From positions 1 to 44,537 of the forward strand of contig SVKQ01000017.1 in NCBI GenBank assembly GCA_015068325.1: DNA of 44,537 bases, in the 5' to 3' direction. The position numbers and the translations under genes are program-made. The stretch's first letter is position 1; every line of letters begins with the position of its first letter. Below, piece by piece: positions 16,209 through 35,608 of the stretch. This DNA is from Oscillospiraceae bacterium (lineage in GTDB: Bacteria > Bacillota > Clostridia > Oscillospirales > Oscillospiraceae). The notes under the pieces are model-generated. The model worked only from the letters and a program-made list of their open reading frames with translations, had not been told where the DNA came from and searched no databases.

Positions 16209-16880
16209 GTGCCGGAACTCACCATTCTCTATGTTGACGAGTACCTGGTCGTGGCCGTCAAGCCCGCCGGCGTCCTGTCGGAGGACAGCGACCGCGGCAC
16301 CTCTATGCCCGCCCTGCTGCGGCGGCATTTCCAGGCGGCCGGGGAGAGCGATTATGTTGCCACCGTCCACCGGCTGGACCGGATCGTGGGCGGCGGGATG
16401 GTGTTCTCCCGCCGGCGGGAAGTCACCGGCAAGCTGGCCGACGCCATCCGGGAGCGCCGCGTCACCAAGGAGTATCTGGCGGTGCTGCGGGGCCACCCCA
16501 CCCCGCCGGCTGACACCCTCACCGACCTGCTGTTCCGGGATGCCGCCCACAACAAGAGCTATGTGGTAAAACGGGTGCGGAAGGGTGTGCGGGAGGCGTC
16601 GCTGGACTACACGGAGTTGGATCGGACGGAGGACCTCTCCCTGGTGCGGATCCAGCTCCACACCGGGCGCACCCATCAGATCCGGGTGCAGTTCTCCTCC
16701 CGCGGTCTGCCGCTGCTGGGCGACATCCGCTACGGCAGCAAGGATCCTCGCTGCGGCGCCGCCCTGTGGTCGTACCGTTTGGCCTTCGATCACCCCGTCA
16801 CCGGGGCAGCTGTGGACGTCACCTGTCCCCCGCCGGACACCTTTCCCTGGGCGCTGTTCGGCGCCATCAGCCGCTTGTAG
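16209..16880 (+). CDS. RluA-family pseudouridine synthase
   Basis: The 223-residue protein has the RluA catalytic motif HRLDR near residue 56 (Asp is the nucleophile) and the substrate-binding segments RVTKEYLAVLRG and HTGRTHQIRVQF. It converts specific uridines in 23S rRNA or tRNA to pseudouridine. There is no S4 domain, and the usual HRLDRxTSG reads HRLDRIVGG here. The target cannot be told from the sequence. The GTG start is set by GGGAGG at 16196-16201. Confidence 0.9.
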   Translation: MPELTILYVDEYLVVAVKPAGVLSEDSDRGTSMPALLRRHFQAAGESDYVATVHRLDRIVGGGMVFSRRREVTGKLADAIRERRVTKEYLAVLRGHPTPPADTLTDLLFRDAAHNKSYVVKRVRKGVREASLDYTELDRTEDLSLVRIQLHTGRTHQIRVQFSSRGLPLLGDIRYGSKDPRCGAALWSYRLAFDHPVTGAAVDVTCPPPDTFPWALFGAISRL

Positions 16881-16932: not shown

Positions 16933-16966
16933 AAAGCCGCTTACCGGACCGGTAAGCGGCTTTTTT
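16933..16966. terminator. Bidirectional terminator between rluA-like and the spo0A paralogue
   Basis: AAAGCCGCTTACCG and CGGTAAGCGGCTTT form a 14-bp perfect stem around a GAC loop, with T stretches on both strands. The two flanking genes converge. Confidence 0.88.
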
Positions 16967-16978
16967 GTTGTCCTCTGC

Positions 16979-17710
16979 TCACGCGCCCGGATCCCGGACC
17001 CGGAAACACAGCTTCTCCGCCATGGTGGCGATGAAGGTCCCGTTGCTCCAACGCAGCTCCGCCTTGAAGAGCTTCCTCTGGATCTCCGGGTCGCCCCGCA
17101 GCCAAGCGGCCTCTACCGCGCTGCGGATGGCCCGCTCCACGCATCCCGGCGTGGTGGCGAACTGGCGAGCCAGCGCCGGGTACAGTTCCTTGGTCAGGGC
17201 GTGGGCCAGATGCGGCTCCTCCATCACCATCAGGATCGCGCGGCGCACGTAGGGATAACCCTTCAGATGGGCCGGCATGCCGATATTCTGCAGCGCCCGG
17301 GTGACCAGCAGCTCCCACCGGGCTGGGGCCGCGCGCTCCACGCCGGCGCCACAGGCGCGGCGGAGCGTCTCCAGCAGCGCCTCCGTCTCAAATGGCTTGG
17401 GCAGAAAATGGCGGATACCCTGGTGGATCGCCTGCAGCATCACGGCACGGGTACAGAAGCCGGTGATCATCACCAGGCCGGGCACCACACCTTCCAGCCG
17501 GCCCAGCAGTTCAAAACCGTCCAGCCCCGGCAGCACCGCATCGGTGATCACCACGTCGGGCTGTAGGCGCAGCGCCAGCTCCAGCGCCTCGGCGCCGCTG
17601 CCGGTGTCGGCCACGAGCCGGAACTCACCCGTGCTCTCGATGAGATCCCTCATCAAGAGGCGATACTCTTCATTTGCATCCGCCAACAACACGTGCTCTT
17701 TTCCGCTCAT
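16979..17710 (-). CDS. Spo0A paralogue (response regulator with Spo0A-type output domain)
   Basis: This 243-residue protein aligns along its whole length with the canonical Spo0A encoded at 19376-20134. The receiver keeps phospho-acceptor Asp57 (ITDAVLPGLDG), the Thr switch residue and Lys in FLPKPF. The C-terminal Spo0A DNA-binding domain is recognisable from IGMPAHLKGYPYVRRAIL and VERAIRSAVEAAW. In the recognition-helix region the canonical [15 protein letters not shown] is GCVERAIRSAVEAAW, and the usual C-terminal [15 protein letters not shown] is changed to a WSNGTFIATMAEKL form. So it may bind a related but not identical site, or act as a competitor. The start at 17710 is set by GGGGAGAAAGCC. 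A perfect Spo0A box lies upstream. Confidence 0.88.
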   Translation of the reverse strand: MSGKEHVLLADANEEYRLLMRDLIESTGEFRLVADTGSGAEALELALRLQPDVVITDAVLPGLDGFELLGRLEGVVPGLVMITGFCTRAVMLQAIHQGIRHFLPKPFETEALLETLRRACGAGVERAAPARWELLVTRALQNIGMPAHLKGYPYVRRAILMVMEEPHLAHALTKELYPALARQFATTPGCVERAIRSAVEAAWLRGDPEIQRKLFKAELRWSNGTFIATMAEKLCFRVRDPGA

Positions 17711-17754
17711 GGCTTTCTCTCCCCACACTGTTTTCTCTCGGTCCTGTAGTAGGT

Positions 17755-17783
17755 ACATTACCACAGCTTTGTTCCGTTTTCAA
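17755..17783 (-). promoter_or_regulatory. Promoter for the spo0A paralogue
   Basis: On the minus strand TTGAAA, a 17-nt spacer, then TAATGT, about 45 nt upstream of the ATG. Confidence 0.6.
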
Positions 17784-17813
17784 GAAAATATTGCCATTTT
17801 TCGTCAACTTTCG

Positions 17814-17822
17814 TTCGACAAA
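17814..17822 (-). promoter_or_regulatory. Perfect Spo0A box upstream of the spo0A paralogue
   Basis: TTTGTCGAA on the minus strand contains the full 7-base core TGTCGAA known for Spo0A~P binding. It ends 31 nt upstream of the putative -35 of the paralogue and about 80 nt upstream of the divergent yfcE-like promoter, so it could act on either. Confidence 0.6.
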
Positions 17823-17900
17823 ATCCGCACATCCGCAACTTTAGGAAGATATAGTAGGGGTTGGGTGCGGTACCCACAAAATATAGTTTTTGCCCGGCTG

Positions 17901-17958: not shown

Positions 17959-18504
17959 ATGAAATGGATGGTGGCGTCGGATCTGCATGGCAGCGCGACC
18001 GCCTGCGAGAAGCTGCTGGCGGCCTATGAGCGGGAGCAGGCGGACAAACTGCTCCTGCTGGGGGATCTGCTGTACCACGGGCCGCGCAACCCGCTGCCGG
18101 GGGGTTACGACCCCAGGCGGTGCTATGAGCTGCTCAATGAGTGCCGGGACGAGATCCTCTGCGTGCGAGGCAACTGCGACGCGGCGGTGGACCAGATGGT
18201 GCTGGAGTTCCCCATCATGTCGGAGTATCTCCTGCTGCAGCTGGGCCGGCGCACTGTGTTCGCCACCCACGGCGACGTGTGGAGCCCAGAGCGCCCGCCG
18301 CTGCTGGCCCCCGGCTTTATCCTGCTGGCCGGTCACACCCATCACGCCGCCTGCGACATGTTCCCGGACTTTCTCTACCTCAATCCCGGCTCCCCCTCTC
18401 TGCCCAAGGGTACAGAGCACCGGGGCTATCTGATTCTGGAGGAGGACCGCGTCACCTTCAAGGAGCTGGACGGCACCGCGTATCGGGAACATACGCTGGC
18501 ATAG
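17959..18504 (+). CDS. yfcE: YfcE-like metallophosphodiesterase
   Basis: The 181-residue protein shows all calcineurin-like metal-binding motifs of the YfcE family in order: SDLHG, GDLLYHGPR, RGNCD, THGD and GHTHHA. The family hydrolyses phosphodiesters with Mn2+; YfcE of E. coli acts on artificial substrates and its cell substrate is not settled. Length is normal. The start follows GGAGG 8 nt upstream. It is a monocistronic plus-strand gene between two spo0A-type genes, sharing its upstream region with the paralogue. Confidence 0.9.
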   Translation: MKWMVASDLHGSATACEKLLAAYEREQADKLLLLGDLLYHGPRNPLPGGYDPRRCYELLNECRDEILCVRGNCDAAVDQMVLEFPIMSEYLLLQLGRRTVFATHGDVWSPERPPLLAPGFILLAGHTHHAACDMFPDFLYLNPGSPSLPKGTEHRGYLILEEDRVTFKELDGTAYREHTLA

Positions 18505-19375: not shown

Positions 19376-20134
19376 TCACGCCCGCTTTTGCTTCATCTGC
19401 AAGCTCAGGCGGTCTGCGATCATGGCGATGAACTCCGAATTGGTGGGCTTGCCCTTGGCGGAGTTGACGGTATAGCCGAAGTACTTCTGCAGCGTCTCCA
19501 GGTCGCCGCGGTCCCAGGCCACCTCGATGGCGTGGCGGATGGCGCGCTCCACCCGGGAGGCGGTGGTGTCGAACCGACGGGCCACCTCCGGATAGAGCAC
19601 CTTGGTGACAGCGTTGATGACATCCATATCCGACACGGCGATCAGGATGGCCTCGCGGAGGTACTGATAGCCCTTGATATGGGCGGGCACGCCGATCTCG
19701 TGGATGATGGCGGTGACCTGACCCTCCAGCGCCGGAGAGGCTTCGCTCTCCGCCGGCTCCGGCCCCGCGGCGCGGCGCATGTGCTCCAGCAGCGATGACT
19801 CGCTGATGGGCTTGGGCAGGAAGGCCCACACACCCAGGGCCGCCGCCTCCGCCACGGTGCGCTGGCCGCAGAAGGCCGACACCACGATGGCACGGGGTGC
19901 GGCTGTGCCCCGCTCGGCACAGCGCCGCAGCAGCGCAAAGCCGTCCAGCGCCGGCAGCACCAGGTCCGTCACCAGCAGCTGGGGCTGCTGTTCCACCACC
20001 AGGCGCCACGCCTCCTGTCCGTCGCCGGTGTCGCCTGCTACGACGAACTCTCCCGTCTCCTCGATGCTCTGCCTGAGCAAGATACGAAACTCCTCGCTGC
20101 TGTCGGCGAGGACCACTTTGATCTTGTTTTCCAT
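19376..20134 (-). CDS. spo0A: Sporulation master regulator Spo0A
   Basis: The 252-residue protein has a receiver with phospho-acceptor Asp57 ([11 protein letters not shown]) and Lys in FLPKPI. The C-terminal Spo0A domain carries the near-invariant [18 protein letters not shown] and [15 protein letters not shown]. When phosphorylated it binds TGTCGAA-type boxes to switch on sporulation and repress growth-phase genes. The usual second acidic residue after Asp11 is replaced: ADSSEE rather than ADDN. The start at 20134 follows AGAGGACGG. It lies directly downstream of spoIVB, the normal arrangement in endospore formers. Upstream there are two imperfect Spo0A boxes that may mediate autoregulation. 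Confidence 0.98.
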
Positions 20135-20263
20135 GGGCAATCCGTCCTCTTTTCGCAAAATTTCAATGTCCGCACAACCTGCCGCCTTTCCGCGGCAAAT
20201 CAACATCCGTCCCTTGACCTGCCTATAATGTAGCAGAATCGGACAGCGTTTTCCCGCGGATTT

Positions 20264-20292
20264 CGTCGAACCGCCCGGAGAATCGCTCGACA
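20264..20292. promoter_or_regulatory. Two imperfect Spo0A boxes upstream of spo0A
   Basis: CGTCGAA on the plus strand (20264-20270) and TGTCGAG on the minus strand (20286-20292) each match 6 of 7 core bases. They lie about 130-160 nt upstream of the spo0A start. This is suggestive of autoregulation; no promoter could be fixed with confidence. Confidence 0.4.
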
Positions 20293-20359: not shown

Positions 20360-21388
20360 CTATCCGGCCATGGAGAGCATGTTCTCCATGAGGATTCCGT
20401 AGCCCTGGGTTGGGTCGTTGACCAGCACGTGGGTCACGGCACCCACGAACCGGCCGTCCTGGATGATGGGACTGCCGCTCATGCCCTGCACGATGCCGCC
20501 GGTGGTCTCCAGCAGCCGCCGGTCGGTAACGCGCAACAGCAGATCGCGCATGTCCTGCCGGCCGGGACAGAGGCGTGTGATCTCCACTCGGTAGAGTTCC
20601 GTCCGGTCGCCGGAAACGGTGCAGAGGATCTCGGCCTCGCCCGGATGGACCTCGTCAGGTGCGGCCACCGGGATGGGCTGTCCGCCGCTGGCGAAGGCAC
20701 TGTCCGACACCACTCCAAAGATGCCGGCAGCGGTGTTGGCAAAGACGGTGCCCACGTCCCGCTGGACGGAGAAGTCGCCCTTCAGCTCACCGGGGTCGCC
20801 CCGCTGACCCTTTTTCACCGCACGGACCGTGGTCTCCATGATAGAGCCGGAGCTCAGGGGCATCAGCACCTGAGTGTCCACATCGGTGATGCCGTGGCCC
20901 AGAGCCCCGTAGTTGCCGGTGTTGGGATCGTAGAAGGTCAGCGTGCCGATGCCGGCCATGCTGTCGCGGATCCAGACGCCCAGGCGATAGACGCCGTCGT
21001 CACACAGCACGGCGCAGGTGTCCACCGCCGAGGTGCGCTGACCGCGGCGGACGGTCAGCGTCACCGCCGCCTCGCCGTGCTCCTGCAGGAGGGACTGCAA
21101 ATGCTCTGTTGACTGGATCTCCTCATCGTCAATCCGGAGGATCAGGTCTCCTTCCCGTAATCCGCAGTCCTCCGCCGGAGAGCGCCCGCCTGTGTTCAGG
21201 TCAGAGGTGGCCACCACCAGCACGCCGTCGGCGAACAGCTTGATGCCAACGGCGCGGCCCATGGGGATCAACTGCCGGCTGCCGCCCTCCGCCGCCCAGA
21301 CCGGCTGACAACAGCACAGGGCCAGCAGGATCGCCAGCAGCAGCGCGGCGCTCCGCCGCAGAAAAGATGGTCGTCGCGTTTCATGCAT
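20360..21388 (-). CDS. spoIVB: SpoIVB peptidase (S55 family)
   Basis: The 342-residue protein has an N-terminal signal/anchor helix, a PDZ domain (about 60-130; GLREGDLILRIDDEEI) and an S55 peptidase domain with GALGHGITD holding the catalytic His and GMSGSPIIQDG holding the catalytic Ser near 306. SpoIVB is secreted from the forespore and cleaves SpoIVFA to trigger SpoIVFB and activate sigma-K. It is shorter than the B. subtilis protein (about 425). The start follows GGGGTG. No convincing forespore promoter was found, so it could also be read from ftsZ upstream. Confidence 0.96.
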   Translation of the reverse strand: MHETRRPSFLRRSAALLLAILLALCCCQPVWAAEGGSRQLIPMGRAVGIKLFADGVLVVATSDLNTGGRSPAEDCGLREGDLILRIDDEEIQSTEHLQSLLQEHGEAAVTLTVRRGQRTSAVDTCAVLCDDGVYRLGVWIRDSMAGIGTLTFYDPNTGNYGALGHGITDVDTQVLMPLSSGSIMETTVRAVKKGQRGDPGELKGDFSVQRDVGTVFANTAAGIFGVVSDSAFASGGQPIPVAAPDEVHPGEAEILCTVSGDRTELYRVEITRLCPGRQDMRDLLLRVTDRRLLETTGGIVQGMSGSPIIQDGRFVGAVTHVLVNDPTQGYGILMENMLSMAG

Positions 21389-35125: not shown

Positions 35126-35608
35126 TTAAGCCCTTCCCTTTCGTTTTAATTCCTCCGCCACCGGTGCGGGTACATACAGTTCCATCGGCTGGCCGTAGCG
35201 GATCATCTCGCGCACCATGGTGCTGCTGAAGTGCCGGTACTGTGCGCTGGCAGGCAACAGCACCGTCTCCAGCTGGGGACAGATACCCCGGTTGATGTCC
35301 GCCATCTGATATTCCTGGTCAAAATCAGTGGCGTTTCGCACACCCTTGACCAGCACATAAGCCTCTTTTGCCACGGCGTAATCCGCCAGCAAGCCGCTCC
35401 AGGACTCCACCTCCACATTGGCGATGTCCGCCACGGAGGCGCGGATCAGCGCCACGCGCTCGGTCTCCGAAAACATGTGCGAGTTCTTCTCGCAGTTCAC
35501 CATCACACACACATACACTTTGTCGAAACAGGTGGCTGCCCGGCGGATGATGTCCAGGTGGCCCAGCGTGATGGGATCAAAGCTGCCGGGATAGATTGCA
35601 CTGTTCAT
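35126..35608 (-). CDS. coaD: Phosphopantetheine adenylyltransferase
   Basis: The 160-residue nucleotidyltransferase has YPGSFDPITLGHLDII with the TxGH catalytic motif and VKGVRNATDFDQEYQMA. It joins 4'-phosphopantetheine with ATP to give dephospho-CoA, the penultimate step of CoA synthesis. A late SSTMVRE segment fits the family. Its ATG overlaps the rsmD stop (ATGA), the common bacterial rsmD-coaD pair. Confidence 0.97.
   Translation of the reverse strand: MNSAIYPGSFDPITLGHLDIIRRAATCFDKVYVCVMVNCEKNSHMFSETERVALIRASVADIANVEVESWSGLLADYAVAKEAYVLVKGVRNATDFDQEYQMADINRGICPQLETVLLPASAQYRHFSSTMVREMIRYGQPMELYVPAPVAEELKRKGRA

Follow-up and report, generated by a model that had tools for sequence, protein, structure and literature searches.

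The window analyzed here, a stretch of 44,537 nucleotides, is contig C16 and part of a 1.96 Mb genome that is 95% complete. Examination of the open reading frames revealed two full-length genes of the Spo0A type, each matching PF00072 and PF08769, at the coordinates and the spacing of about 1.7 kb given in the initial annotation. The order on the minus strand is a spoIVB-like gene, the canonical spo0A, and then the second gene, here called spo0A2, with 1.67 kb between the latter two. This interval carries a YfcE-like gene and a small lipoprotein-like ORF on the plus strand. The names spoIVB-like, YfcE-like, and RluA-like are presumptive. The features of the locus are the following.

16209-16880, plus strand: RluA-like pseudouridine synthase gene, far flank of the insertion (ORF)
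16933-16963, plus strand: terminator-like stem-loop where the rluA-like gene and spo0A2 converge (computed scan)
16979-17710, minus strand: spo0A2, receiver and Spo0A_C, 243 aa, ATG at 17710 (ORF list, domain matches, orthologues)
17755-17783, minus strand: promoter-like stretch of spo0A2 as a whole (conservation across six copies)
17755-17760, minus strand: TAATGT promoter-like element in TGTGGTAATGT (mean pairwise identity 0.79, six copies)
17778-17783, minus strand: TTGAAA promoter-like element, 30 bp past the box (mean pairwise identity 0.89, six copies)
17814-17822, minus strand: exact 0A box TTTGTCGAA (motif search and conservation)
17814-17829, minus strand: extended operator TGCGGATTTTGTCGAA containing the 0A box (motif search and conservation)
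17959-18504, plus strand: YfcE-like phosphodiesterase gene, divergent from spo0A2 (ORF)
19376-20134, minus strand: canonical spo0A, 252 aa, adjoining the spoIVB-like gene (TIGR02875, 263.9 bits)
20258-20270, plus strand: extended 0A-type operator GGATTTCGTCGAA upstream of canonical spo0A (motif search)
20360-21388, minus strand: spoIVB-like gene, synteny marker of canonical spo0A (ORF)

Spo0A2 matched both domain families over its full length, with PF08769 scoring 103.6 bits against a cut-off of 25. The Spo0A equivalog TIGR02875 has a cut-off of 200, and the canonical protein lay above it at 263.9 bits, whereas Spo0A2 lay below it at 153.4 bits. Like the canonical Spo0A of B. subtilis and C. 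difficile, Spo0A2 joins a receiver with Asp, Thr, and Lys in place to Spo0A_C, keeps the E213, R214, and R217 positions (B. subtilis Spo0A numbering is used throughout), and has a 0A site upstream. It differs from canonical Spo0A in scoring under the TIGR02875 cut-off, in the changes of R211 to C and H218 to S, and in a rewritten or shortened stretch at 225-246; its gene is not beside spoIVB, a place held by the other copy. The alignment bore out the retention of the phospho-acceptor Asp and Lys of the receiver, with D57, T83, and K105 all kept (motifs TDAVL, ITGF, and PKP), and the active-site Asp and Lys are retained across the seven close copies in the genus. An AlphaFold model of Spo0A2 based on 8 sequences had a mean pLDDT of 83 and a pTM of 0.55, at which the domain arrangement is not reliable. 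A structure search with this model ranked full-length response regulators first, with the Spo0A-DNA structure 1lq1 at ranks 14, 21, and 23 and the Spo0A receiver 1qmp at rank 25. The effector domain of the model superimposed on 1lq1 with an rmsd of 1.3-1.6 over 106 columns and a TM score of 0.88-0.90 by target length.

Related genomes were then searched for the second gene and its synteny. Spo0A2 was found in 9 of 32 genomes of the genus, including that of the window, and not in the remaining 23, several of which are incomplete. Identity of the orthologues was 64-67% in G311, G274, G324, G323, and G317, 52% in G236, 74% in G303, where the gene is a fragment at a contig end, and 37% in G302, whose divergent copy (L174) has a very long branch and an R aligned with the receiver Lys position. 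Reading frames were open in the eight full-length copies. When a profile built from seven copies (A2) was run against 400 genomes of the family, scores above 400 bits were confined to the genus, and the next best match, at 260 bits, was a canonical Spo0A. In the order, with 295 genomes searched, that of the window alone passed E 1e-70.

In all seven genomes showing both genes on one contig, six besides that of the window, the two are adjacent, and in those six spo0A2 lies 0.4-3.9 kb downstream of spo0A, which itself follows spoIVB. Where both flanks are visible (the window, G311, G324, G323, and G236), spo0A2 sits between spo0A and an rluA-like gene. The YfcE-like gene is also beside spo0A2 in G274, G324, G323, G317, and G302, but not in G311 or G236. 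G304, G306, and G307 keep the order spo0A, rluA-like, dacF-like, comEA-like with spo0A2 absent; their intervals of 0.4-1.4 kb hold other sequence, part of it coding, and tblastn at E 1 detected no remnant of Spo0A2 or the YfcE-like gene in them.

For 21 pairs among seven Spo0A2 copies, pN/pS was 0.30-0.60 (mean pN 0.254, pS 0.54), compared to 0.11-0.33 (mean pN 0.106, pS 0.44) for canonical spo0A of the same genomes. Spo0A2 is thus under purifying selection, although less tightly constrained than the canonical gene. The prospect that the paralogue would prove to be a decaying copy in this strain only did not hold, given its presence in 9 of 32 genomes and the selection acting on it. A relaxed duplicate that is heading for loss and has been retained by chance would account for the higher pN/pS of Spo0A2, the very divergent G302 copy with its R at the receiver Lys position, and the 23 genomes, some incomplete, in which no copy was found; we consider it very unlikely in view of the open frames of all eight full-length copies, purifying selection over a large dS, and the conservation of operator and spacing described below. 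Spo0A2 is a genuine, maintained second Spo0A. SpoIVA, a marker of sporulation, was found in 27 of the 32 genomes, including that of the window. G125, listed as 100% complete, has a canonical spo0A and no SpoIVA match, and is possibly a non-sporulator.

The initial annotation had reported a perfect 0A box upstream of spo0A2, and the exact TTTGTCGAA was confirmed 103 bp before the spo0A2 start. The window holds two exact copies, compared to 0.12 expected; the other, at 35519-35527, falls within a coaD-like ORF and probably arose by chance. With up to one mismatch there were 6 copies in the window versus 3.98 expected, no clear excess, and the bare 9-mer was not enriched genome-wide, with 12 copies versus 23 of the reversed control. 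A single 0A box by itself proves little, and it is conservation that counts. Among the 232 9-mers upstream of spo0A2, the box alone recurs without a mismatch in 5 of the 6 regions upstream of orthologues, while 196 are present in none. A chance box is ruled out by this conservation, despite the lack of enrichment of the bare 9-mer in the window (at one mismatch) or the genome.

We also searched for the core TGTCGAA within 300 bp upstream, with expectations from mononucleotide shuffles. It precedes 7 of 8 Spo0A2 genes of the genus (0.26 expected), the upstream sequence of the eighth reading N and the G303 fragment having none. Within the genus it likewise precedes 26 of 29 canonical genes (1.08 expected) and 1 of 3 other second copies; elsewhere in the family it was found before 8 of 12 canonical genes (0.47 expected) and 12 of 29 second copies (0.96 expected). 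The exact core is absent before the canonical spo0A of the window, which instead has degenerate 0A-like sites, one of them at 20258-20270.

When six spo0A2 promoters were anchored on the box, mean pairwise identity was 0.96 for the box, 0.77 for the ten bases preceding it, and 0.42 further upstream. Just past the box it was 0.65, falling to 0.49 in the spacer and rising to 0.89 in the TTGAAA-like hexamer, with 0.69 for the 17 bases past the hexamer, 0.79 for TAATGT, and 0.40 beyond. The DNA flanking spo0A2 therefore diverges outside the operator and the promoter-like elements. The hexamer begins exactly 30 bp past the box in 6 of 6 anchored promoters; in G236 the spacing is 29 bp and the hexamer TTGCAT. 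We read these elements as probably of the sigma-A type, and a scan for consensus promoters did not include the proposed promoter at 17755-17783 among its predictions. The box lies roughly 70 bp upstream of the likely transcription start, a position that alone gives no sign of the mode of control. The conserved box and spacing together lend good support to the proposal of a second regulator under a 0A box. A test of shared runs supported a promoter copied from spo0A in G311, G324, and G323 (runs of 12, 15, and 14 nt; shuffled maxima 10-11), gave no support for this in G000 (the genome of the window), G236, and G274, and gave no clear support in G317.

Across the 32 genomes of the genus, the 13-mer GGATTTYGTCGAA has 24 copies, spread over 11 genomes, versus 0 for the reversed control. 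Five of the sites are at spo0A2 promoters and five at spo0A promoters, nine are in two arrays of the window's genome, one precedes a gyrB-like gene (G236), and three are within ORFs (G125, G304, and G325). The remaining site precedes an abrB-like gene in G317, with TTGACA directly past it. Since abrB is a classical target of Spo0A, this suggests that Spo0A recognizes the motif in this lineage.

The larger array, at G000:C9:23050-23178 (L213:1500-1629), is a tandem of seven 19-bp units, each with TGCGGATTTYGTCGAA, the extended operator of spo0A2, and sits upstream of thioredoxin-like and thioredoxin-reductase-like genes. A two-copy array of TGCGGATTTYGTCGAA is located at C9:11905-11939, 11 kb away. 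None of the other 31 genus genomes, many of which are incomplete, yielded an array of this type. The array may serve as a promoter with several binding sites or as a decoy that draws Spo0A or Spo0A2. A 0A-type site was also seen upstream of a gyrB/parE-like gene in two species (L211, own genome C7:6212; L280, G236 C8:5766).

The change in the recognition helix from SRVERAIRH to GCVERAIRS is present in the sequence as first described. The altered residues, 210, 211, and 218, flank E213, R214, and R217, which we take to be the base-reading residues; the work of Zhao in 2002 on 1lq1 reportedly showed positions 213, 214, and 217 to read bases. The surface for sigma-A is said to span residues 227-240 (Hatt and Youngman 1998; Buckner 1998), with F236 and G227 (and V240) presumably being sigma-A-specific mutant positions. 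We aligned 40 second copies, comprising 8 of the Spo0A2 clade, 3 others of the genus, and 29 rows from 28 family loci, and removed 5 near-canonical duplicates to leave a divergent set of 35. The reference was 66 effector positions invariant in 41 canonical proteins, in which the stretch AWDRGD...GYTV..KGKPTNS is near-invariant.

The equivalents of E213, R214, and R217 are retained in 35, 33, and 34 of the 35 divergent copies, which places them among the most conserved of the 66 positions, and in each of the seven close genus copies. R211 is retained in only 7 of the 35, H218 in 4, D225 in 2, Q233 in 1, Y238 in none, and V240 in 4. Mean retention of the 13 invariant positions in 225-246 was 0.29, compared to 0.57 for the other 53 (permutation p 0.003, only a guide, as the rows are related to one another and the bounds were chosen after inspection of the alignment). 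Losses were as heavy at invariant positions beyond these bounds, with 162, 170, 174, 190, 191, 218, 251, and 258 retained in 1 to 5 of 35. In Spo0A2 the segment GYTV..KGKPTNS, whose positions 237-240 and 244 are present in 41 of 41 canonical proteins, is not intact: in the seven close copies 238 and 240 are altered or deleted in all, and 239 and 244 in 6 of 7. F236 is kept in 7 of 7 of the clade and in 30 of the 35 divergent copies, and G227 in 23. Because these two positions are mostly kept, it is not certain that activation has been lost. DNA binding could be weaker without R211 and H218, and the changes at 211, 218, and the invariant 162, 174, and 191, which are DNA-facing or neighboring, indicate that affinity may be lower.

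C211 is present in 19 of the 40 aligned copies, and C211, S218, Q232, and R233 are all fixed in the seven close copies of the genus, where they look selected rather than merely lost. Such fixation would be expected of a neofunctionalized activator or repressor which, switched on by Spo0A, runs a gene set of its own through other boxes or other contacts with RNA polymerase, and which would be a branch and not a brake. The retention of F236 and mostly of G227, together with the diverged receivers (23-33% identity to the canonical partner in the alpha4-beta5-alpha5 stretch of the seven copies), also fits such a regulator. We regard it as somewhat unlikely, since nearly all copies keep the presumed base-reading residues and the target sites of Spo0A2 should therefore overlap those of Spo0A.

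The reading we tentatively prefer, and which may quite possibly be right, is that Spo0A2 is a 0A-box-controlled, phosphorylatable paralogue acting as a feedback brake, able to bind 0A boxes but with weak activating power or none. The conserved operator, set at constant spacing from a promoter-like sequence that is conserved too, would place spo0A2 in the Spo0A regulon, with Spo0A~P presumably binding there. From the kept D57, T83, and K105, Spo0A2 is predicted to be phosphorylated on D57 like Spo0A and would then dimerize. With the equivalents of E213, R214, and R217 in place, it would bind the same 0A boxes as Spo0A, and with the segment around the sigma-A-activating surface (~225-246) rewritten or shortened, it would occupy them while activating RNA polymerase little or not at all. 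Spo0A2 would compete with Spo0A~P at promoters that are activated, and at repressed ones it could still repress. The predicted outcome is negative feedback with a delay, serving as a brake on commitment to sporulation or as its dose limiter. The initial suggestion that the second regulator tunes or antagonizes sporulation thus fits the changed activation segment but sits less easily with the two presumed activation positions, which are mostly kept. The low identity of the alpha4-beta5-alpha5 stretch to the canonical partner also weighs against the brake.

The kept receiver Asp and Lys of the seven close copies would equally serve a kinase or phosphate sink, in which the Spo0A2 receiver competes for phosphate and the DNA-binding half is of little weight. 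This is improbable, as the effector domain is constrained, with 213, 214, and 217 kept, and helix alpha-1 is only 27-53% identical to that of the canonical partner in the seven, such that shared kinases are not evident. If the proposed brake is correct, a chromosomal, 0A-controlled Spo0A that binds without activating would be a simple negative-feedback device, and the hypothesis makes a residue-level prediction testable in B. subtilis. Many Clostridia spread as spores and, to our knowledge, how Spo0A is restrained in them is poorly known.

A second Spo0A as such is already known from C. thermocellum (Cthe_3087 / Clo1313_0637), where, as here, the genome has a distant homologue in addition to the primary spo0A; what is added here is a testable brake hypothesis for Spo0A2. 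According to PMC3804516 and PMC4890492, C. thermocellum has two spo0A genes, deletion of the primary one abolished sporulation, and the role of the second is unexplained. The two papers describe mutations that arose in evolved strains. Phages carry receiver-less spo0A homologues that may interfere with host sporulation, according to PMC10294663. These are extra effector domains in a phage, whereas Spo0A2 has its receiver and is full length, chromosomal, and syntenic beside spo0A. A phage origin is ruled out by this full length and by the synteny among chromosomal genes. PMC3485338 describes base- and backbone-contacting residues conserved between B. subtilis and C. difficile, with the core TGTCGAA. 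PMC4690370 places a sigma-A activator region in the effector domain, with mutants failing at sigma-A promoters, and for its Spo0A-deficient strain a table there gives a deletion of residues 235-242. No description of non-activating full-length Spo0A paralogues was found among the papers listed in literature searches that mostly lacked subscription journals, and the portions available of PMC6136694, PMC3416734, and PMC7924749 make no mention of Spo0A duplicates.

The Spo0A2 clade has tree support of 100/98. In topology tests on 67 of 81 rows, 14 long or redundant rows having been dropped, a single clade uniting the genus copy and 9 similar ones found in other genera was not rejected (p-AU 0.38), nor was an origin inside the genus (p-AU 0.215) or with the canonical genes of its own subclade (0.13). 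The AU tests leave both an old paralogue and duplication in place as candidate origins, and the position of spo0A2 next to spo0A together with the sites lacking the gene favors duplication in place.

The generalization of one Spo0A for most spore formers serves poorly in this family. Second Spo0A-type genes are frequent in the family, with at least two matches at E 1e-30 in 38 of 400 genomes (up to six candidates scored per genome), and the number of Spo0A_C matches should not be equated with the number of sporulation master regulators. Around 31 second-copy loci of family and genus, no group of neighbors recurred in more than two genomes, and five were shared by pairs (rough ORF picking, 1.5 kb), which likewise speaks against a phage origin. 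The alignment of second copies leaves aside, among others, those in G002, G368, G394, G395, and G210 and further copies in G052, G161, and G340; the fragments L149, L177, L178, and L179 were excluded from trees and residue counts, and L170 had no effector match. It is rather doubtful, though the shared losses of R211, H218, and the activation segment would point that way, that full-length Spo0A duplicates across the family repeatedly became DNA-reading, non-activating antagonists of the master switch, many of them 0A-box-controlled.

Other second Spo0As of the genus, L159, L164, and L166 (in G315, G036, and G322), fall outside the Spo0A2 clade. The G036 and G322 copies, the latter running into a contig end, branch within a local canonical group; R211 is still present in them, whereas H218 and the GYTV stretch are already gone. 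The Spo0A matches L033, L034, and L038, from Oscillospiraceae/Clostridia MAGs, share 61-65% identity with canonical genus copies.
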